The notes beneath the pieces were generated by a model. The model did no database searches and was not told where the DNA came from. It worked only from the letters and a program-made list of their open reading frames with translations. Both the position numbers and the translations under genes were made by a program. DNA of 24,319 bases from a virus, in IMG/VR virus record IMGVR_UViG_3300025151_000296, positions 1 to 24,319 of that record, one strand, 5' to 3'. Positions 2,854 through 20,300 of the stretch are shown here, piece by piece. How positions within the stretch are numbered: position 1 is the stretch's first letter; each line of letters begins with the position of its first letter.

Positions 2854-3038
2854 AATGCCCCCTTTCTTTTCATTTCATCAACAAATGATGTAAACTCACC
2901 ATCTAACATATCTACATACCAAAGAAGAAAATCCTCAAAGGACATATCTTCTTTAACAGTTAATTGAAACTTACCAAATTCATAAGTCCACTTTTCTCTT
3001 ATTTCATCTAAACTATCTTTCATTTTACTTTCTTTCAA
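2850..3038 (-). CDS. Hypothetical acidic protein, TTG start
   Basis: About 62 aa, no family recognised. It is helical and acidic, with a FEDFLLWYVDMLDGEF stretch that may form an amphipathic helix. An ATG at 3044 sits only one base after GGAGG, too close. The TTG at 3038 overlaps the polymerase stop as TTGA with proper spacing from GGAGG, the same arrangement as at 4640, 13968 and 16627. ATG 3023 is a third option. Confidence 0.65.
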   Translation of the reverse strand: MKESKMKDSLDEIREKWTYEFGKFQLTVKEDMSFEDFLLWYVDMLDGEFTSFVDEMKRKGAL

Positions 3039-3940
3039 AACCATTCCTCCAAATTTGTTTGTATTTTACCCGATTTGATATTAGACAAATCCCAATTCAT
3101 AGCCTTATAAATTGGTTCAGCCTTCTTTATTACTTGCTCGGCATAGTGTTGATAATCGGGTTTATACTTATCAAAATCAATATACCGAGAACCTGCTACA
3201 TATTCAACAGTCTTCACTTCTTTAGTTAGCGGGTGTGTAAATACTTCACCGGACTTTGCTACTTTAAGGTATAAGTAAGAGTCGTCAAATGTAATGTCTT
3301 TTTGTTTGGCGTGTAATACACCTGCAATACCCGAACCTATTGTTGGTTTTTTACCATCTAAAGTCCTAAAATTCTTAACATCTTCACCGCATTTTTTACA
3401 CCATCTTAAAGGCAAGCACTCATGTAAAGTGTATCTTGATTTACAACCCCATCCATGCTCTGTAACTTTAGAACATTTTACTTTCAATCTGTTTTCTTTA
3501 AGCCTACTTCTTTTAATAATATCTTGTAGTTCGACCTTTCCATCCAATACTGACATGTATTTATTGTGTAGATATTTGTTGATTTCTAACATTGGTTTTT
3601 CATTCACCCACATTGTCAATACATCGGTTTGAACTTCTTTAGCAAGTTTAGTTTCACTAACTCTTTTGGCCGTAAAACCTGTCATAATAAACTCCGGTTC
3701 ATCTAGCCATTCTCCATCTTTCCAAGTTATCATACCTGCATTTCTATTCTTAGTTGTTCCAACACCCAATGCTGAATAGTATTTCTCAAACTCTAGCACT
3801 ACGGGGTGTTGTTCTAATCCCATAACATTAGGGAAGTGTTCTCTAACACTAGACTCTATTTCTTTAATAGCGTCTTGTGCCTTTTCAACAGAATCAATTT
3901 GAACATAAATCGAATCTGTATGTCCGTAAACTACTTTCAT
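3035..3940 (-). CDS. polB: Family B DNA polymerase, C-terminal part (motif C, thumb, PIP box)
   Basis: The 301-aa C-terminal half of a split replicative polymerase. It begins MKVVYGHTDS: motif C lies at residues 5-10, so the protein starts four residues before the catalytic strand. The family form is YGDTDS; here His7 replaces the first Asp while the metal-binding Asp9 is kept. TKNRNAG (about 63-69) takes the place of the family KKRYAG loop. Cysteines 156, 166, 175, 181 and 184 form a likely zinc-binding insertion in the thumb region. The last eight residues, QTNLEEWF (294-301), are a PIP box for PCNA. ATG 3940 with GTGAT upstream is preferred over GTG 3952. The partner is the gene at 5707-7371; the two products must assemble for activity. 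Confidence 0.88.
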   Translation of the reverse strand: MKVVYGHTDSIYVQIDSVEKAQDAIKEIESSVREHFPNVMGLEQHPVVLEFEKYYSALGVGTTKNRNAGMITWKDGEWLDEPEFIMTGFTAKRVSETKLAKEVQTDVLTMWVNEKPMLEINKYLHNKYMSVLDGKVELQDIIKRSRLKENRLKVKCSKVTEHGWGCKSRYTLHECLPLRWCKKCGEDVKNFRTLDGKKPTIGSGIAGVLHAKQKDITFDDSYLYLKVAKSGEVFTHPLTKEVKTVEYVAGSRYIDFDKYKPDYQHYAEQVIKKAEPIYKAMNWDLSNIKSGKIQTNLEEWF

Positions 3941-3944
3941 AATA

Positions 3945-4142
3945 TCACACACTGCTATAATTAAACATCATTCCAACAGGTTGATTTGCTAACTTAGCGA
4001 CTTCTTCCATAATGTCTCTTATGTTGCTACTTGAAACTTTTGTTAGTTCTATCTCTAAGTATAGTTCTTCTACCTCTCTTTCTAAGCCTTCAATCCTTTC
4101 TTCTAATTTTTGTATTTCATATTTCATTTCTTTTTCATTCAT
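3945..4142 (-). CDS. Hypothetical coiled-coil protein, 65 aa
   Basis: Residues 3-35 form a heptad-like, Glu/Lys/Leu-rich coiled coil (IQKLEERIEGLEREVEELYL). The remaining tail, with NIRDIMEEVAKLANQPVG, is unrecognised. The gene is the last of the nine lying between the two polymerase halves, five bases before the start of the C-terminal half, with GGTGAT as ribosome site. Its position makes it a candidate partner of the split polymerase, by inference only. Confidence 0.7.
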   Translation of the reverse strand: MNEKEMKYEIQKLEERIEGLEREVEELYLEIELTKVSSSNIRDIMEEVAKLANQPVGMMFNYSSV

Positions 4143-4273
4143 AATATCACCGTTATTATTGTTATAATGGTCGCTATATTTACAATATTTACCATCATTA
4201 ATATTTTATTGCTCTTAGCAATCATAGCGAGTAATTCCTCAAGGAGTTCATTTGTCTTGTCCATCATCGACAC
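4139..4273 (-). CDS. 44-aa single-pass membrane miniprotein, GTG start
   Basis: A short N-terminal polar region (MDKTNELLEELL) is followed by one strongly hydrophobic segment rich in I, V, M and T (about residues 24-44) that runs to the C terminus: a tail-anchored single membrane helix. GTG 4273 is chosen because GGAGG lies at proper distance; ATG 4267 is the alternative. The stop overlaps the next start (ATGA). No family is recognised. It is the only clear membrane protein in the window. Confidence 0.6.
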   Translation of the reverse strand: MSMMDKTNELLEELLAMIAKSNKILMMVNIVNIATIITIITVIL

Positions 4274-4275
4274 TG

Positions 4276-4434
4276 TTATTCCTCCGTGTCTTGTCCATCA
4301 ATTTCTATAATAGTTGCCTTACGCTTTACATTAGTTAGCATTTCTATTATATCATAAATGTCTTTTTCTGTTTCTTTCCATGTTTCTTCCGTATCGTATT
4401 CTATTTTGGCAACTACATATTTTGTGTATTTCAT
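4276..4434 (-). CDS. Hypothetical protein, 52 aa
   Basis: Unrecognised. Probably beta-alpha-beta: YVVAKIEYDT, a charged helix, then ATIIEID. GGAGG upstream and the ATGA overlap with the previous gene support the ATG at 4434. The final codons (DTEE) carry the GGAGG for the next gene. Confidence 0.6.
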   Translation of the reverse strand: MKYTKYVVAKIEYDTEETWKETEKDIYDIIEMLTNVKRKATIIEIDGQDTEE

Positions 4435-4640
4435 ATATTTAACCTCCTATATTCTCCTTCACCTATTCTTTCTACTAATTTAGGCATAGTAGATAGTAGG
4501 CTACCTACCTCTTGAGAGTTTCCAATATACATACTAGTTCCTTTCTTTTCAACAATAGCGGAAACAATTTCATTAACTGTAAATGTCTCTTCCATTTCCT
4601 CTACTGTTTCAAGAATCCATTTCTTAAAATATTTATTCAA
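4431..4640 (-). CDS. Winged-helix-like hypothetical protein, TTG start
   Basis: 69 aa. FTVNEIVSAIVEKKG followed by a second helix and a GEGEYRRLNI wing-like hairpin suggests a small winged helix-turn-helix DNA-binding fold; this is pattern reading only. The TTG start at 4640 makes a TTGA overlap with the upstream stop and has GAGGAGG nine bases before it; the next in-frame ATG is 15 codons downstream and would lose the first helix. Confidence 0.65.
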   Translation of the reverse strand: MNKYFKKWILETVEEMEETFTVNEIVSAIVEKKGTSMYIGNSQEVGSLLSTMPKLVERIGEGEYRRLNI

Positions 4641-4774
4641 CTAAATACCTCCTCGTAGTCACAAGAGTTACATGCCAATTTAGCCCTTTTCTTAGTATGT
4701 TGAGCATAAGAATAATTAGTTTTGGGCTTCAATTCTATGTAAGTTATTGAACCTCCACATCTAGGACATTTCAT
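4637..4774 (-). CDS. 45-aa zinc-ribbon miniprotein
   Basis: Begins MKCPRCGG and ends near CNSCDY: two C-x2-C pairs (C3/C6 and C35/C38) separated by 28 residues, a typical zinc-ribbon plan. Its ATG overlaps the previous stop (ATGA, 4774-4771) and its stop overlaps the TTG of the next gene. Partner and function are unknown. Confidence 0.7.
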   Translation of the reverse strand: MKCPRCGGSITYIELKPKTNYSYAQHTKKRAKLACNSCDYEEVFS

Positions 4775-5217
4775 TGTATCAACCTCTTTTCAAATGCTTT
4801 TATCTTATTCCTCATTCTTGTAATAGAACCCTTTTGTAAGTTTATTGTTTTATTAAGTTCTTTGATTTCTTCTTGTGCTTTTTGTGATTTAGTCATAGAA
4901 GAGATAATAACATCTTTTAGTTCACTAACTTTTTCATCCACTATTCTTTCTACAATAGGTTTTATGTCATTAGTTATTTGGTGCTGAACTTCAACTCCAA
5001 TATTGCTATGTAATACATCAATAGAGGATTTTAAATCTTCTATTTGCTTTTCCATATTATCTACTATTGCTATTGCATTAACAGTTTTATTAGCCATAAC
5101 CTTGTATCTGTTTCTTCCTCCGCTACCTCTACAAGCCTCGCATATTTTTTCTGTTGATTTCAAAGACCTCTTTCTAAAGACCTGCCTACATTCTCTACAT
5201 TCTGTTGTTATACTCAT
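4771..5217 (-). CDS. Zinc-ribbon plus coiled-coil protein
   Basis: 148 aa. An N-terminal zinc ribbon (CRECRQVF at about 7-14, CEACRGSGGR at about 26-35) is followed by a long coiled coil over residues 50-148. It is the largest gene in the block between the polymerase halves. A scaffold or adaptor that dimerises through the coil and binds nucleic acid or protein through the ribbon is plausible, but no family is recognised. The ATG at 5217 has GAGG eight bases upstream. Confidence 0.75.
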   Translation of the reverse strand: MSITTECRECRQVFRKRSLKSTEKICEACRGSGGRNRYKVMANKTVNAIAIVDNMEKQIEDLKSSIDVLHSNIGVEVQHQITNDIKPIVERIVDEKVSELKDVIISSMTKSQKAQEEIKELNKTINLQKGSITRMRNKIKAFEKRLIQ

Positions 5218-5320
5218 TTTTATTCCTCATTTTTATTTCTTCTGCACATCTTTTACAATGAAACTTACCCTCAAATTGAGGATTATGTGCCAATGGTTTC
5301 ATACATTTTATTCTATTCAT
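5195..5320 (-). CDS. 41-aa Cys/His miniprotein
   Basis: A short ORF with C6, H12, H21 and C22-x2-C25, a possible single zinc site, then a basic helix. AAGGAG lies upstream of the ATG at 5320. It overlaps the genes on both sides (8 and 23 nt), which is more than most overlaps here, so it is less certain than its neighbours. Confidence 0.5.
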   Translation of the reverse strand: MNRIKCMKPLAHNPQFEGKFHCKRCAEEIKMRNKNEYNNRM

Positions 5321-5471
5321 TCTTCCGACTCCTTTTTGGTTTCACTTTATTTATTAACATAATAAGGCCATAGTCCACACAATTTCTGCATACCGACCAT
5401 TCTTCATTTCCTAAAACAAATGTCTTAAGATATTCATTTTTATTACATATCATACATTCCATACTTCCCAT
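5313..5471 (-). CDS. 52-aa zinc-ribbon miniprotein
   Basis: Two Cys pairs (CMIC at residues 6-9 and CRNC at about 28-31) flank a short strand region; the tail is basic (KPKRSRKNE). The frame opens earlier at 5498, but ATG 5471 overlaps the previous stop as TAATG and has AAGGAG upstream. Function unknown. Confidence 0.68.
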   Translation of the reverse strand: MGSMECMICNKNEYLKTFVLGNEEWSVCRNCVDYGLIMLINKVKPKRSRKNE

Positions 5472-5710
5472 TATACTTCCAACTCCTTTACTATCCATGC
5501 TGATACGCCATAAATAGGATTAGCACCATAAACACACCAACCAAAATAACTTCTATCATTTTCAGCCTCATATTTTGCTATTTCTTCTTTACTCCAACGA
5601 TATAAACATGGTCTGTAAAAAGGAATATCCCCTGTATCTTCTTCGGCTTCTTGTAATACAATATCTCCTAAGCCTTCATGTGGCGGTAATTTATTTAATT
5701 GTAAACTCAT
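5471..5710 (-). CDS. Hypothetical protein directly after the polymerase N-terminal part
   Basis: 79 aa, no family recognised. It has many aromatic residues (YRPCLYRWSKEE, YFGWCVYG) and an acidic N-terminal third. It begins in an ATGA overlap with the end of the polymerase N-terminal part and ends in the same five residues, KELEV, because a 16-nt sequence is repeated at both ends of the gene. Confidence 0.72.
   Translation of the reverse strand: MSLQLNKLPPHEGLGDIVLQEAEEDTGDIPFYRPCLYRWSKEEIAKYEAENDRSYFGWCVYGANPIYGVSAWIVKELEV
5473..5488. repeat. 16-nt direct repeat, copy 1
   Basis: ATACTTCCAACTCCTT on the plus strand; on the minus strand it gives AAGGAGTTGGAAGTAT. It encodes KELEV and serves as ribosome site for the gene starting at 5471. 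It is identical to copy 2 at 5709-5724; the two copies bracket the 79-aa gene. Confidence 0.85.
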
Positions 5711-7371
5711 ACTTCCAACTCCTTCGCCTTAAATGCGGCTAGTCTAATCGCTTCTCTAGCACTAGCAGTAATACTAGCGGCTAAATCTACATCGGCCCAA
5801 CCAAATCCTTGAAACGCTAATACACCATAAAATGAAGCCATTAGTCTCTTGACCGCCATTTGGTTATTATACCACTTGACATACTCATCACCTTCGGAGT
5901 TCTTCATTCTTTTCTTGTAATCATTTCTTAACTCTTTCAATTCAAGAACTGCTCTAGGTAATAGTCCTAGTTCATCAGTTCTATAATAGTGCATTCGCTC
6001 TCCTTCCACTTCGCTGAAATCTCTTGGTGTTAATATATTAACCCCAAATTCAGTAGGTGTTTCGCTCTTAGTTTCCCAAGATATGTTTCTAGCAACCATC
6101 ATTGAAGGATATAGCCCCGCAAAGTCAAATGCCGCTACATTAAGATGTAAACCATTAGTATTCTCACTAAGCGGGTCATAAATCATAGCCCCTTGATATT
6201 CTCTTCTATCAGCACTTTTGATACCTGTTGGTGCTTTCCACCAAGCATTTCTCATAAAGTAAATAGAACCCATATGTGAAGCATAGAAGCAAGCCTTGAA
6301 AGGTGCTTTTAGTAATCGTTGTAATGATATTATTGCTTCACTACAATAGTTTGATTCATCTATTTTAACTAAGAGTTCTACATCTACTAAGGCATAATTT
6401 AAGTATGCTTCTGTATCTTCTAACCATGCTCTACGATAAAATTCGTTAGGGTCTTCAAACTTAGTTTCCATTACCTTTCCTTCATCGAACAATATCTTAG
6501 AAACATAATCAAGACTTAGTGAAGGTAATGTTCCTCTTTGAGAATCATTCCATTGTCTTTCAAATGCTAGGTCTAAGTTAAGAGTTAGCCTTCCACCAAT
6601 AGGTTGTTCAATTGGTGAATAACCATCTTGTCTCTTAAAACTGCAACCTTTCTTAAGTTGCTTAACTCCATCTATCTTATGATAAGGCGACATGATTAAA
6701 GGATTCAAACCCAAAGCACATGCTCTATCTAATAACTTAGGTAAGTCGAACTTAAGACCAAACCATGCAATTAACATATCGGGGTCTTTAGCAATCATAT
6801 ATCCCATAAAGACTTCAAGCATAAATTTTTCATCACGACAAAAATAAGTGTTGTGTTTTGTTTCTGTATTATAACTTATTATTTGGGATGGGTTATAACA
6901 TTGATGGCCTTCGGGAAACCAAGTCCACTGAATGTATTTCTTATCGTAGTTATCATACACTACAATAGTAGTAATGCAACCATCATGTTCTCCTCCTTGT
7001 TGCCATTCCATATCCCAATACCACTTACGCATATTGTATTCGGGCATCTCATTAACTTCATCAACTGCATATCTAAATGTATAAGGCACATCAGCCTCAT
7101 ATGTTTTAGTAAAGAGTTGCCTAGCACTTTTTATGTCATATGATTTTTCAACATAGACTCTCTTCAAAGGTTCACCTTCTAGGCTTTTCCAATCTCCATC
7201 TTCATATTCAAATCTACCATTGGTATATTTGTTCAAAGGATAGTAATTTCTTTCTACCTCATCTTCTAAAACATAGAAGTAGGGTCGAAACTCTACCTCT
7301 TCGCTTTTTCTTTTTCCGTTTTCTCTCCAAGATTTGTATATTGTATTTCCATTTTTATTACTAATTATCAT
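5707..7371 (-). CDS. polB: Family B DNA polymerase, N-terminal part (3'-5' exonuclease, motifs A and B)
   Basis: The 554-aa N-terminal half of the split replicative polymerase. Exonuclease motifs: D120-x-E122 in YWDMEW (Exo I), WFGLKFDLP around D209 (Exo II) and NYALVDVELL (Exo III), so proofreading looks intact. Motif A is DFAGLYPS with D416. Motif B is K508-RLM-A-SFYG516; the family usually has Asn where Ala512 stands. The protein stops after the helix following motif B (ELEV), exactly before the strand carrying motif C, which begins the gene at 3035-3940. Start ATG 7371 has GAGG nine bases upstream. Directly downstream of PCNA in one operon. Split PolB is known in Methanothermobacter, where the small subunit also carries motif C. 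Confidence 0.92.
   Translation of the reverse strand: MIISNKNGNTIYKSWRENGKRKSEEVEFRPYFYVLEDEVERNYYPLNKYTNGRFEYEDGDWKSLEGEPLKRVYVEKSYDIKSARQLFTKTYEADVPYTFRYAVDEVNEMPEYNMRKWYWDMEWQQGGEHDGCITTIVVYDNYDKKYIQWTWFPEGHQCYNPSQIISYNTETKHNTYFCRDEKFMLEVFMGYMIAKDPDMLIAWFGLKFDLPKLLDRACALGLNPLIMSPYHKIDGVKQLKKGCSFKRQDGYSPIEQPIGGRLTLNLDLAFERQWNDSQRGTLPSLSLDYVSKILFDEGKVMETKFEDPNEFYRRAWLEDTEAYLNYALVDVELLVKIDESNYCSEAIISLQRLLKAPFKACFYASHMGSIYFMRNAWWKAPTGIKSADRREYQGAMIYDPLSENTNGLHLNVAAFDFAGLYPSMMVARNISWETKSETPTEFGVNILTPRDFSEVEGERMHYYRTDELGLLPRAVLELKELRNDYKKRMKNSEGDEYVKWYNNQMAVKRLMASFYGVLAFQGFGWADVDLAASITASAREAIRLAAFKAKELEV
5709..5724. repeat. 16-nt direct repeat, copy 2
   Basis: Identical to 5473-5488. It encodes the last codons (KELEV) of the polymerase N-terminal part and acts as ribosome site for the gene at 5710. 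Its position is the exact seam where the polymerase gene is broken. Confidence 0.85.
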
Positions 7372-7380
7372 TTATATTCC

Positions 7381-8154
7381 TCAATTTGCTAAGTGTGGTG
7401 CTTTAATCAAAAGTTTATTCTCCGATATAATTAACATCGGGAAATCATCTTTGACATAAAAGTTCAACATTTCATTGTCAAACAATACATGTAGTGGGCT
7501 AGAAAAATCTAGTGTTGCTGATTCTCCAATATTGCCTTCTAACTCAATAGAAGTTTCAAACTTATTTGAGTTGTTAGTAGCACTAGACAGTGATAACTTA
7601 TTCTTATCATGTTCATAGTTTAGGTGATAAACACCACTACCGATTAACTCACAAAGTTTCATAGTTTCACTAAATGTATTTGAGTCTAATTGAAATGCAC
7701 CTTCATATTTTTCTTTGTTAAAGTTAAACAAAGTTTCTAGGTTTTCCTCAAAGCGTGTATCTAGGACATGCTGACCCATACGATTTAATGTTTCCATATT
7801 AGGATGATTCGCAATAGTAGGTTGTGAAAGTTTACTATTGTTATTTGTCATAGTAATAATATCACCACAGTTTACTACTACATCACCACTGAACTTCTTT
7901 AGATATTTCAACAACTCTCCGGTTTCACCAACAACCGTTCCGTCTTCATCACCTTCAACAGTTATATTGACTCTAACTATTAATGAATTAATAGAATCGC
8001 AATTCCATAAACTCAATGTATTATTGTGCAATTTAGCGTAAAAATACTCTATTAAAGTATTATTAGTTAGACTTGCACCATTGAAGTATTTTCCTTTCAA
8101 TTGTATATCTGTTAATGCTTTGACTAATTCTTTTGCATCTACTGTAAATTTCAT
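7381..8154 (-). CDS. pcn: PCNA-like sliding clamp
   Basis: A 257-aa ring-forming processivity clamp, the usual length for archaeal PCNA. The start MKFTVDAKELVKAL matches the first strand and helix of PCNA, and the end (YVKDDFPMLIISENKLLIKAPHL) matches the last strands of the family. It lies between the RecA-like ATPase and the polymerase. The PIP boxes of the polymerase C-terminal part and of the RFC-large-like protein should bind it. ATG 8154 is chosen over the upstream in-frame start at 8190: GGGAG precedes it and it makes an ATGA overlap. Overall identity is low, so the call rests on ends, length and context. Confidence 0.8.
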   Translation of the reverse strand: MKFTVDAKELVKALTDIQLKGKYFNGASLTNNTLIEYFYAKLHNNTLSLWNCDSINSLIVRVNITVEGDEDGTVVGETGELLKYLKKFSGDVVVNCGDIITMTNNNSKLSQPTIANHPNMETLNRMGQHVLDTRFEENLETLFNFNKEKYEGAFQLDSNTFSETMKLCELIGSGVYHLNYEHDKNKLSLSSATNNSNKFETSIELEGNIGESATLDFSSPLHVLFDNEMLNFYVKDDFPMLIISENKLLIKAPHLAN

Positions 8155-12057: not shown

Positions 12058-12292
12058 CTCTATTTTTCCATATTATATTATTATCTTTTTTACTAAAACC
12101 CACCTTATCGAAATAAGATGAGAGAATATTACTTAGTTGGTGGATTGTTAAATCTCCACCATTTCTTTTCATACTGTTTTTAGAAGGATGTTCTACCATC
12201 CTATTGTATATTTCTCTAGTAGTTAATTCATTACTACCGACTATATTTATCAGTCGCATGACTACTCTCTTTTTTCCCTTTCTAATCTTCAT
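11993..12292 (-). CDS. HTH-like protein, first of a tandem pair
   Basis: 99 aa, paralogous to the next gene. After a basic arm (KIRKGKKR) comes a predicted helix-turn-helix or winged-helix core (LTTREIYNRMVEHPS, LTIHQLSNILSSYFDKVGF) ending IIWKNR, then an Asn/Lys-rich tail that overlaps the next gene. ATGA overlap with the RFC-large-like gene. DNA binding is inferred from pattern and charge. Confidence 0.68.
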   Translation of the reverse strand: MKIRKGKKRVVMRLINIVGSNELTTREIYNRMVEHPSKNSMKRNGGDLTIHQLSNILSSYFDKVGFSKKDNNIIWKNRDENYGKKRKQNDNKENKNDVR

Positions 12293-13134
12293 AAGTAGTC
12301 ACCCAAACTAACCTGTTTTTTCTTAACGGGCTTTGCTTTACGCACCCGCTTTTCTCCTAAGTTCATTAGGCGACACTCACTATTATTTAGTTTGCTTTTA
12401 GCAAATTTAACAAAATTTTCATCTTGTATTAATTGCTTAAAGACTCTCTTATCAGCGTTTTTAATACCAAGCCTTCTTAACAAAGAAGGAACTTTAGAAT
12501 ATTGTTTTCTAGTTGGCATATTCAACCTACCATAAAACCTACCATCATAAGCGTATGCTAACATTTCATAGAAGTAATCTTGCGACCATCTTCTTCTAAC
12601 TCTACCATCAATGAATAACAATTTATTCGGATTTGAATTTACACAAAGCCAATTCAATATTTGAGTATCGGATGGTTTGTTAATCTTCAAAACCCTACAA
12701 ACTTCTTCTCTATCACTTTCTTTCAAGAAGTAATTCACTAAACTAAAGGTGTCCATCTGTAATGAAAAGGGTTCTTCGCTTCTAGGTGCTAGTTCTTTAA
12801 TTGAGTTTAATAAGTGCTTTTCAGTCCCCGCCCTTTTTATTTGACAAAGAGGCTTCACTTCCTTTGGAATGTCTTTTTCATTAAGCGAGGTCATTACTAG
12901 TTTACCTCTATACCGTCTAATTATATTCAATAAGCGTTCTTTATCACTATTATAATGAATATCTTCGATAATAAGTCCATTTTCAACATTAATTGAATTT
13001 GAGTCTATTTCTAATTCATCACTAAATATAACCAAAGCATCTGGAAGTATCTCTTTTGCCTTTGTTGTTTTTCCTGTTCCTGTTTTTCCTGTTATTATTA
13101 TTGGTCTATTTCTATTCATATTTGTTAATCCCAT
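12289..13134 (-). CDS. RFC large subunit-like P-loop ATPase with C-terminal PIP box
   Basis: A 281-aa protein. Walker A is GKTGTGKT (16-23); LIIEDIHY (E57, D58) serves as a weak Walker B, and LVMTSLNEKDIPK resembles the sensor-1 strand. A helical middle is followed by a basic stretch (KRVRKAKPVKKK) and QVSLGDYL (274-281), a PIP box at the extreme C terminus exactly where archaeal RFC large subunits carry theirs. It is much shorter than cellular RFC-L (about 480 aa) and lacks clear RFC boxes. Next to RFC-S in the same operon, it is likely the fifth subunit of the viral clamp loader. A packaging or other ATPase is the alternative. Confidence 0.65.
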   Translation of the reverse strand: MGLTNMNRNRPIIITGKTGTGKTTKAKEILPDALVIFSDELEIDSNSINVENGLIIEDIHYNSDKERLLNIIRRYRGKLVMTSLNEKDIPKEVKPLCQIKRAGTEKHLLNSIKELAPRSEEPFSLQMDTFSLVNYFLKESDREEVCRVLKINKPSDTQILNWLCVNSNPNKLLFIDGRVRRRWSQDYFYEMLAYAYDGRFYGRLNMPTRKQYSKVPSLLRRLGIKNADKRVFKQLIQDENFVKFAKSKLNNSECRLMNLGEKRVRKAKPVKKKQVSLGDYL

Positions 13135-18845: not shown

Positions 18846-18979
18846 TATTCTTCACCATACCATTCTTTTTTATTTACTTCTTTTACTCCGTCATATTCAT
18901 TACAAGTAGAACAAGACCAATAGCCTAAATTATCGTCTGCTTCTCCTTCACAATAAACACAAATCATAATTGTTGTCAT
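18845..18979 (-). CDS. 44-aa zinc-ribbon miniprotein
   Basis: CVYC (7-10) and CSTC (23-26) form a compact zinc ribbon, followed by an acidic/charged tail. Its ATG overlaps the JAB stop (ATGA) and its stop overlaps the GroES start (TAATG), so it is translated within that chain. Function unknown; its place makes an adaptor role for the JAB protein possible. Confidence 0.7.
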   Translation of the reverse strand: MTTIMICVYCEGEADDNLGYWSCSTCNEYDGVKEVNKKEWYGEE

Positions 18980-19515
18980 TCTTCTCCACTCCTAATTTTC
19001 GATTCTAAATTATATTGGCTTTGCACCCAAAACGATTCTTCACCGTTTACATCTACATTTCTAATCATTAATAAGTTAGGCTTTTCATTTGTCCAATAAC
19101 CATAATGTTCTACTCCACCTAACACATAGGCTTCTTGCATTTGACTTTTCCATGTATTAACTGTATTCCAATCAATACCGCTAAAGTAAGCACTACCGAA
19201 GGGGTGTGTATGAATCCAACACTTGATAGGTAATTTCATACCAATAGGAGGTTTCATACCAAACTCAACATAGCCCGATGAACCCGTAGTAACATGGCAA
19301 TTATTATTATCATCAATAACTACTTGCACTTCTAAAGCAGGTAGTAATTCAGTTGAAGCAATCCAAATCGCCTCAAAAAACCCTTCCGCTTCAACATGTG
19401 GATTTAAACCCCAACATTCTTTTATGTATTCTTCTACTCTTGCTCTAGCATCTTCAATGCTTTGCTCATATTCAACCATGTTCTCAAAATCTCTTATTGA
19501 CTTACCATCGGACAT
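18976..19515 (-). CDS. JAB/MPN+ metalloprotease (deubiquitinase-like)
   Basis: 179 aa. The JAMM zinc motif H102-x-H104-x7-S112-x2-D115 is complete (CWIHTHPFGSAYFSGID), so the enzyme should be an active zinc isopeptidase. Candidate upstream glutamates lie near residues 42-48 (EAEGFFEA). In bacteria such proteins process or remove ubiquitin-like proteins together with E1 and Ubl partners (PRTRC, 6A-type and Bil operons). An E1-like gene lies one gene upstream and a Ubl further upstream here. ATG 19515 has GGAG upstream; the TTG at 19521 is less likely. Confidence 0.88.
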   Translation of the reverse strand: MSDGKSIRDFENMVEYEQSIEDARARVEEYIKECWGLNPHVEAEGFFEAIWIASTELLPALEVQVVIDDNNNCHVTTGSSGYVEFGMKPPIGMKLPIKCWIHTHPFGSAYFSGIDWNTVNTWKSQMQEAYVLGGVEHYGYWTNEKPNLLMIRNVDVNGEESFWVQSQYNLESKIRSGEE

Positions 19516-19735
19516 TATCAATCATCTCCACATAATCAAAGTAAACTTTAGTAAACTTCTCTAGTTCTTCCTTAGTGATTTCTTGAATAATAACTCCACC
19601 GGAGGTATATACCTTCAATTCAATCTTATCATATGCAGTATTCTTCCAACTAAAGTGTTGAATATTTGAATACCTTACACATGCTCTGCTCGTTTGTAAT
19701 ACTCTTCTTAATATTTTTATATTTCCTTCTTTCAT
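19502..19735 (-). CDS. Hypothetical protein between E1 and JAB genes
   Basis: 77 aa, unrecognised. Basic N terminus (KILRRVLQTSRACVRYS), two or three strands (KIELKVYTSGGVIIQEI) and a helix (KEELEKFTKVYFDYVEMI). It has GAGGG before ATG 19735 and overlaps the JAB gene by 14 nt. Lying inside the Ubl-related gene set, it could be a substrate adaptor or take the place of an E2, though no conserved Cys context supports that. Confidence 0.72.
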   Translation of the reverse strand: MKEGNIKILRRVLQTSRACVRYSNIQHFSWKNTAYDKIELKVYTSGGVIIQEITKEELEKFTKVYFDYVEMIDNVRW

Positions 19736-19745
19736 TTTTTATCCC

Positions 19746-20300
19746 TCATACATTTACTACGGCAAAAGAATTTACACTCTCACCATTAAACCATCTTTGA
19801 ATCCATTCAGCACCCATACCTGCAATAGCCATGTGCATGAAATGTATTCCTTCTTGTGAACCATCCCAAGTCTCGCCTTGACAACTAAAAGAACCTTCTT
19901 TACCCGCCAATAAACTATCATACATTGATGGGTCGGCTTGATAAGATACATAGGCAGCGTTTCTACCCTGTGACCTTAAATCCAACCACTTTACATTTGA
20001 ATTGTAAAGCATTCTTCTAGTGCCTAAATTATCAACACAACAAACTACTAAGTCAAAGCCTTCAAGTTGTTGCGGTGTTAAGATAGGATATGGGCTAGAA
20101 ATGCTTACACACTTATGTTTACCCATAGCCATAGATTTATTTTTTCCAACTTCTTCTTCACTAAAGTTTTGATAAGTTAGATTCTTTGTCTCTACTTTAT
20201 CATCATCATTTACTTGTATTTCATACAAGTTTAAATTATCTAAGAATGAAATAAGATAACTTCCTATTCCACCTGCTCCAATTACTAATATTTTTCTCAT
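19746..20300 (-). CDS. ThiF/E1-like adenylyltransferase
   Basis: A 184-aa Rossmann enzyme expected to adenylate the C-terminal glycine of a ubiquitin-like protein. GAGGIG (8-13) is the nucleotide loop; D33/D34, N40-L-x2-Q44 and K55 match the family D...NL.RQ...K set, with Tyr43 where Arg is usual; VDNLGTR (89-95) carries the metal-binding Asp90 and Arg95. C140 in SFSCQGE is a candidate thioester Cys. It is short (ThiF/MoeB about 250 aa) and has no CxxC zinc pairs, like minimal E1s of PRTRC type. Coupled to the gene upstream by ATGA. Confidence 0.88.
   Translation of the reverse strand: MRKILVIGAGGIGSYLISFLDNLNLYEIQVNDDDKVETKNLTYQNFSEEEVGKNKSMAMGKHKCVSISSPYPILTPQQLEGFDLVVCCVDNLGTRRMLYNSNVKWLDLRSQGRNAAYVSYQADPSMYDSLLAGKEGSFSCQGETWDGSQEGIHFMHMAIAGMGAEWIQRWFNGESVNSFAVVNV

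Follow-up and report, generated by a model that had tools for sequence, protein, structure and literature searches.

Kelman et al. reportedly described, in 1999, a two-gene archaeal family-B DNA polymerase (PolB) in Methanothermobacter thermautotrophicus, both chains of which are said to be needed. That split enzyme is cellular, whereas the one examined here is viral. It is encoded in a 24,319-nucleotide stretch of virus DNA (IMG/VR record IMGVR_UViG_3300025151_000296, positions 1 to 24,319), referred to below as the window, in which PolB is divided directly before catalytic motif C into an N-terminal part (PolB-N) and a C-terminal part (PolB-C).

A viral PolB is likewise carried in two genes, 43A and 43B, by Aeromonas phages 44RR2.8t and 25 (PMC2988022; NC_005135). 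Phage 25 has a free-standing endonuclease gene at the gene 43 split, and co-purification of both products with polymerase activity has been reported (PMC2988022). The 44RR break precedes motif B (43B starts upstream of KILINSLYG), whereas the break in the window follows motif B and precedes motif C; due to this difference in position, assignment of the window PolB to the gp43A-gp43B type of 44RR and phage 25 was rejected. That split is also confined to a few phages, in contrast to a magrovirus split that spans a deep clade with growing cargo. Aeh1 nrdA (mobE) and T4 gene 60 (mobA) are essential genes that an HNH homing endonuclease gene has divided into two chains that still work (PMC2988022); the magrovirus case differs in its host gene, in a break that is clade-wide and in a nuclease that is usually absent. 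Homing endonuclease gene islands of phages place nuclease genes, with cargo, next to essential replication genes (PMC10448857), whereas the magrovirus slot lies inside a former polymerase gene.

For magroviruses themselves, a figure legend in the 2023 profile of the International Committee on Taxonomy of Viruses labels PolB-NTD and PolB-CTD separately in Poseidoniales virus YSH_150918 (Aoguangviridae; ON649702; PMC10768690), so that the gene was already annotated in two parts. This magrovirus belongs to the same virus order as the window, and its GroEL, TFB, RFC-S and PCNA genes match the window content. In the literature covered, which lacked some key papers, no text was found that discusses the magrovirus PolB split, its position, its distribution or its inserts. 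Splitting by an endonuclease is already known in phages; new here are the break site, the virus group, the deep clade-wide spread and the matching empty and occupied forms.

We consider it highly probable that the replicative PolB consists of two proteins that assemble non-covalently, that gene insertion made the split, and that the junction now serves as a slot for endonuclease and cargo genes. The cut is long-lived, clade-wide and within the catalytic palm of an essential polymerase, and intact sisters, minimal-insert forms and endonuclease-occupied forms can be compared. The system thereby allows tests of how selfish endonucleases convert enzymes encoded by a single gene into enzymes of two subunits, why such splits stay unhealed, and whether the gap feeds gene gain. 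Note also that PolB-based surveys of magroviruses may miscount or truncate this marker gene.

The two polymerase genes

The two parts of PolB in the window are as follows.

5707..7371, minus strand: PolB-N, with the N-terminal domain, 3'-5' exonuclease, palm motif A (D416), fingers and motif B (PF03104 and PF00136)
3035..3940, minus strand: PolB-C, with the remaining palm including motif C (YGHTDS, D9), a thumb with a zinc-ribbon-like CxxC..CxxC insertion, and a C-terminal PCNA-interacting protein (PIP) box, QTNLEEWF (PF00136)

An earlier note on this DNA, made from the letters alone, had proposed that PolB is split directly before motif C, that almost nothing is lost there, and that the catalytic site is built across two proteins; each point was supported by the comparisons below, and the note also withstood its own tests, in that relatives share the split and near-full-length genomes show no second PolB. 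PolB-N is 554 amino acids long and ends ...REAIRLAAFKAKELEV and a stop codon, directly after the helix that follows motif B (...AFKAKELEV, stop), at a position identical in 113 non-redundant relatives. The earlier note had also recognized PolB-C correctly, with a start that required correction: read from GTG 3952 the protein has 305 amino acids, and from ATG 3940 it has 301 and begins MKVVYGHTDS. The ATG is most likely the true start, as judged from its conservation in relatives. On the PF00136 profile (453 positions) PolB-N covers positions 38-202 and PolB-C 222-370, so that the two matches are complementary, and a search of the window with this profile gave no others.

Residues D120, E122, D209, D330, D416, K508, Y515 and G516 of PolB-N are invariant in an alignment of 26 relatives, and D9 of PolB-C in one of 23. 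Family-B membership is indicated by the PF03104 and PF00136 matches together with the exonuclease residues, the motif A Asp, the motif B Lys and Tyr-Gly, and the motif C Asp. In the assembled enzyme PolB-N would supply the exonuclease, fingers and motif A, and PolB-C would supply motif C, the thumb and the PCNA-binding tail, so that D416 and D9 would meet in one site formed by two chains. The polymerase fold was recognized in both parts: the AlphaFold2 model of PolB-N was matched to residues 5-606 of RB69 gp43 (Z 23.4, 444 residues, root mean square deviation (rmsd) 5.1) and that of PolB-C to residues 534-757 of an archaeal PolB (Z 13.6, 199 residues, rmsd 6.2). These single-chain models are confident in the N-terminal and exonuclease domains and in the thumb, with low confidence mainly in the palm parts, which is consistent with a palm that is completed by the partner chain; shallow alignments may also have caused it.

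The PIP box is kept in 111 of the 113 split relatives. By a pattern test, the zinc-ribbon-like motif of the thumb region occurs in 77 of the 113 and in none of 26 relatives with an intact gene. The first Asp of motif C is replaced by His in split and intact relatives alike, and the replacement therefore predates the break.

Both halves are under strong purifying selection, with a median ratio of nonsynonymous to synonymous rates (dN/dS) of 0.13 for PolB-N (270 pairs) and 0.11 for PolB-C (255 pairs). No second PolB was seen in split records of 80-98 kb, which hold N and C pieces only; the completeness of these near-full-length genomes is not established, and in a few of them one piece alone passed the cut-off or both were merged. 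In the long genomes searched PolB is thus present as two complementary genes with no second full copy, and long records of the intact type gave a single PolB match each. Apparent open reading frames (ORFs) of 948-987 amino acids that span both parts in two records are not continuous, having stops between the parts. Record G007 (L073/L156; 184733 bases) carries two copies of the split PolB, separated by about 90 kb, and is perhaps two virus genomes joined.

One break among the relatives

Relatives were collected from IMG/VR in scans that used PolB-N, joined N-C sequences and intact homologues as queries. Of 139 non-redundant sequences holding both PolB parts, 113 are split, all at the same point and from many metagenomes, and 26 are intact. 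With few single-letter exceptions, PolB-N in the split set ends AREAIRxAAFKxxEL.. and a stop, and PolB-C begins M-x-V/I-V-Y-G/A-H-T-D-S. Intact relatives read AFKAxELGYEVIYGHTDS through the same place, as compared with AFKAKELEV (stop) and MKVVYGHTDS in the split form; the break therefore falls in the short turn that links the post-motif B helix to the strand of motif C, and almost no sequence, probably none of it essential, was lost. Split relatives L084-L093 have tiny inserts.

In a tree from the concatenated parts (869 columns), one branch separates split from intact sequences, with a support of 99 in the Shimodaira-Hasegawa-like approximate likelihood ratio test (SH-aLRT). Trees from PolB-N alone and PolB-C alone also place the two states on either side of a single branch, with support of 100 each. 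A single branch of this kind implies a single ancient event, which would have occurred in the ancestor of a large magrovirus clade. Halovirus HF2 has a single-gene PolB, as do most PolB, and the split is accordingly the likely derived state. No healed copy of the split gene was found, and the frame relation of PolB-N to PolB-C differs between relatives. After the split, the junction would have behaved as an ordinary gene boundary.

Three further observations concern particular sequences. A search of cellular genomes gave one match, a viral-looking contig (L323; NZMJ01000151.1) filed under a metagenome-assembled genome (MAG) of Maricaulis, with a split magrovirus PolB; it is likely viral contamination of that MAG. 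In L006 (N 813-2441, C 4394-5266) and L071 (N 3167-4837, C 5265-6215), PolB-N is 86-97% identical to one lineage, as against 53-56% for PolB-C, which suggests natural hybrid polymerases or chimeric contigs, each case being one contig. Exchange of PolB-C alone in L007 and L010 is not claimed, since their nucleotide profiles are mosaic along both genes.

Genes at the junction

Endonuclease genes occupy the junction in some relatives. An HNH gene (families f15, f24 and f51) or a MUG113/T5orf172 gene (f26) is present in 12 of the 113 inserts, and in 11 of these 12 it is the first gene after PolB-N. Families f15, f51 and f26 were identified by PF01844/PF14279 and PF13455/PF10544 matches, and f24, which had no Pfam HNH match, by an HNH-like motif alone. 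HNH or GIY-YIG-superfamily domains thus occur at the junction in relatives; the window itself holds no such gene. The whole viral collection was searched with three proteins, two of the HNH and one of the MUG113 type, and all 16 homologous loci lie at the PolB split: each adjoins PolB-N, PolB-C or both, contig ends having removed one PolB part in three, and some are contigs already in the set of relatives. A search of 32 records with HNH_5 gave three matches, all at the split, two of the records having been chosen for carrying one.

Close relatives show the same conserved site empty (N|f7-f0-f1) and filled (N|f26|f7, N|f24|f7, N|f51-f52|f7 and N|f15|f7), so that four nuclease families occur at one point. 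Each deep branch within the split clade has endonuclease-like genes (L163 and L170 basal; L012, L126 and L147 derived). A slot for putative homing endonuclease genes and cargo genes, with homing activity presumed, is the best explanation of the junction.

In the window the slot holds about 1.77 kb with nine overlapping small genes, many of them joined by 4-nt ATGA overlaps. They are listed below in order of transcription, with family labels in brackets, together with a 16-nt repeat.

5471..5710, minus strand: insert gene 1 (f18), which overlaps the stop of PolB-N as ATGA and carries at its 3' end a repeat of 16 nt from the 3' end of PolB-N
5313..5498, minus strand: insert gene 2, a CxxC miniprotein (f21)
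5195..5320, minus strand: insert gene 3, a CxxC miniprotein (f4)
4771..5217, minus strand: insert gene 4, a zinc-binding-like N-terminus and a coiled coil (f6)
4637..4774, minus strand: insert gene 5, a zinc-ribbon-like miniprotein (f5)
4431..4640, minus strand: insert gene 6, a winged-helix-like miniprotein (f3), with a weak HARE-HTH match below the cut-off
4276..4434, minus strand: insert gene 7, a 52-amino acid protein (f2)
4139..4273, minus strand: insert gene 8, a 44-amino acid protein with a hydrophobic C-terminus (f0)
3945..4142, minus strand: insert gene 9, a 65-amino acid coiled coil directly before PolB-C (f1)
5709..5724, minus strand: copy 1 of the 16-nt repeat (AAGGAGTTGGAAGTAT), at the PolB-N 3' end, with a Shine-Dalgarno-like GGAG
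5473..5488, minus strand: copy 2 of the 16-nt repeat, at the 3' end of insert gene 1

The nine packed genes of the earlier note were found as described in the window, but they are not a constant feature: insert length ranges from 79 to 2392 nt among relatives, with at least one ORF always present, and the contents turn over. The smallest inserts consist of a single miniprotein of about 30 amino acids. Spacing within inserts is by far most commonly a 4-nt overlap (171 cases). In 73 of the 113 split relatives the stop of PolB-N and the following ATG overlap as ATGA, and in 112 a Shine-Dalgarno-like motif is present in the final 16 nt of PolB-N. Among the cargo proteins of relatives are MazG, a PemK-like protein and a protein with a Viral_Rep domain. 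The last of these, of the type found in circular Rep-encoding single-stranded (CRESS) viruses, is encoded by gene 4 of 6 in the L195 insert (E 4e-17), flanked by the two PolB parts of an archaeal tailed virus; gene 4 of 6 in the L205 gap encodes the PemK/MazF-like protein (E 4e-16).

The origin of the split would most likely have been the insertion of a small gene or of a free-standing homing endonuclease gene, the part played by an endonuclease being presumptive. Endonuclease genes may since have inserted just after the PolB-N stop, where the final PolB-N codons would serve also for ribosome binding, and small overlapping cargo genes may have been gained and lost in the gap. Similarity to the 3' end of PolB-N, set at 17 or more of 24 nt, was seen at the 3' ends of 6 of 102 first-slot genes and at none in other positions. 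This, like the 16-nt repeat in the window, fits insertion by recombination at the PolB-N end, although selection for the same ribosome-binding site could also contribute; the test was unplanned and the positives are few.

Several points weigh against this account. HNH and MUG113 genes occur in about one-tenth of the split viruses and may postdate the split. No relative that was found has a magrovirus PolB intact apart from an inserted endonuclease. The endonuclease scans reach close relatives only, and copies elsewhere may have been missed. Rooting with HF2 is weak, the branch being very long, which leaves some probability to a fusion that arose secondarily in the intact clade. Finally, the assembly and activity of the two-chain enzyme are properties that we infer.

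The first of these points leads to the strongest competing explanation, in which plain small-gene insertion or rearrangement made the split and endonucleases later used the split gene as a safe landing site, with no causal part. We regard this as a serious possibility, if somewhat short of an even chance. Many split viruses, deep branches included, carry one or two miniproteins and no nuclease, small genes are mobile within magrovirus genomes, and the same question was left open for phage 25 gene 43 (PMC2988022). Set against it are the endonuclease-like genes at the same site on both deep branches, and the known ability of homing endonucleases to split phage genes (PMC2988022).

It was also suggested earlier that the inserted miniproteins are accessory subunits, which as a general claim was not upheld, given that inserts differ between split viruses, down to one miniprotein. 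Homologues of f2 occur immediately upstream of the intact PolB of L240 and L269 and at other places in two other split genomes, which argues against most insert genes being polymerase subunits. A narrower form, in which the membrane-like f0 and the coiled-coil f1 are true accessory or assembly subunits, is unlikely: each is present in 70 of the 113 split viruses, with f1 usually directly before PolB-C, but both are absent from the deeper split clades, which have unrelated miniproteins, and one insert family (f2) is located away from PolB as well. Similarly doubtful is a break maintained as a feature in itself, with gap genes controlling two-chain assembly, f1 and f0 acting where the subunits meet, and new combinations of the enzyme formed as viruses swap halves.

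Joining of the halves after transcription or translation, by an intron or a split intein, to give a single-chain polymerase is very improbable. Inteins are known near PolB motif C. The PolB of N. equitans is split into two genes (PMC3655853). As the earlier note had held, there is no intein remnant here: no Pfam intein domain was matched in the window insert, no intein was found in the junction of any relative, and the ends of the two chains carry no intein halves of the N. equitans type. A self-splicing intron was rejected because no known intron RNA family was found in the insert, window positions 3000-7400 giving no Rfam match up to E 1. Moreover, PolB-N is closed by a stop and carries the ribosome-binding site of the gene that follows, PolB-C is read from a start of its own, and the relative frame of the two varies between relatives. 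A broken or decaying PolB, or a misassembled contig, with another polymerase replicating the genome, would account for frames 1.77 kb apart within a single contig and can be dismissed almost entirely in view of the 113 identically split relatives, the dN/dS of about 0.1 in both halves, the invariant catalytic residues and the long split genomes, in which no further PolB was seen.

Genome and neighbouring genes

The window fits a magrovirus-type genome, from a virus of marine Poseidoniales archaea, on the basis of gene content and relatives. It contains chaperonin, TFB and RFC genes, in agreement with the magroviruses of PMC10768690 and PMC5332604. The minus-strand order is RFC, RPA-like, AAA_24 ATPase, PCNA, PolB-N, the nine small genes, PolB-C and a PD-(D/E)XK nuclease, where PCNA and RPA are named by position and resemblance, Pfam having matched neither. 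The order RPA, AAA_24, PCNA, PolB, PD-(D/E)XK nuclease is common to split and intact relatives; because both states share these neighbours, the insert truly interrupts the PolB gene.

Two other observations were made in the window. A ThiF/E1-like protein (PF00899) adjoins a protein with a JAB-like HTH pattern, recognized by eye with no Pfam match (19746-20300 and 18976-19521), as a possible ubiquitin-like conjugation pair. A P-loop protein with no Pfam match (12289-13134) has a C-terminal QVSLGDYL that resembles a PCNA-binding motif.

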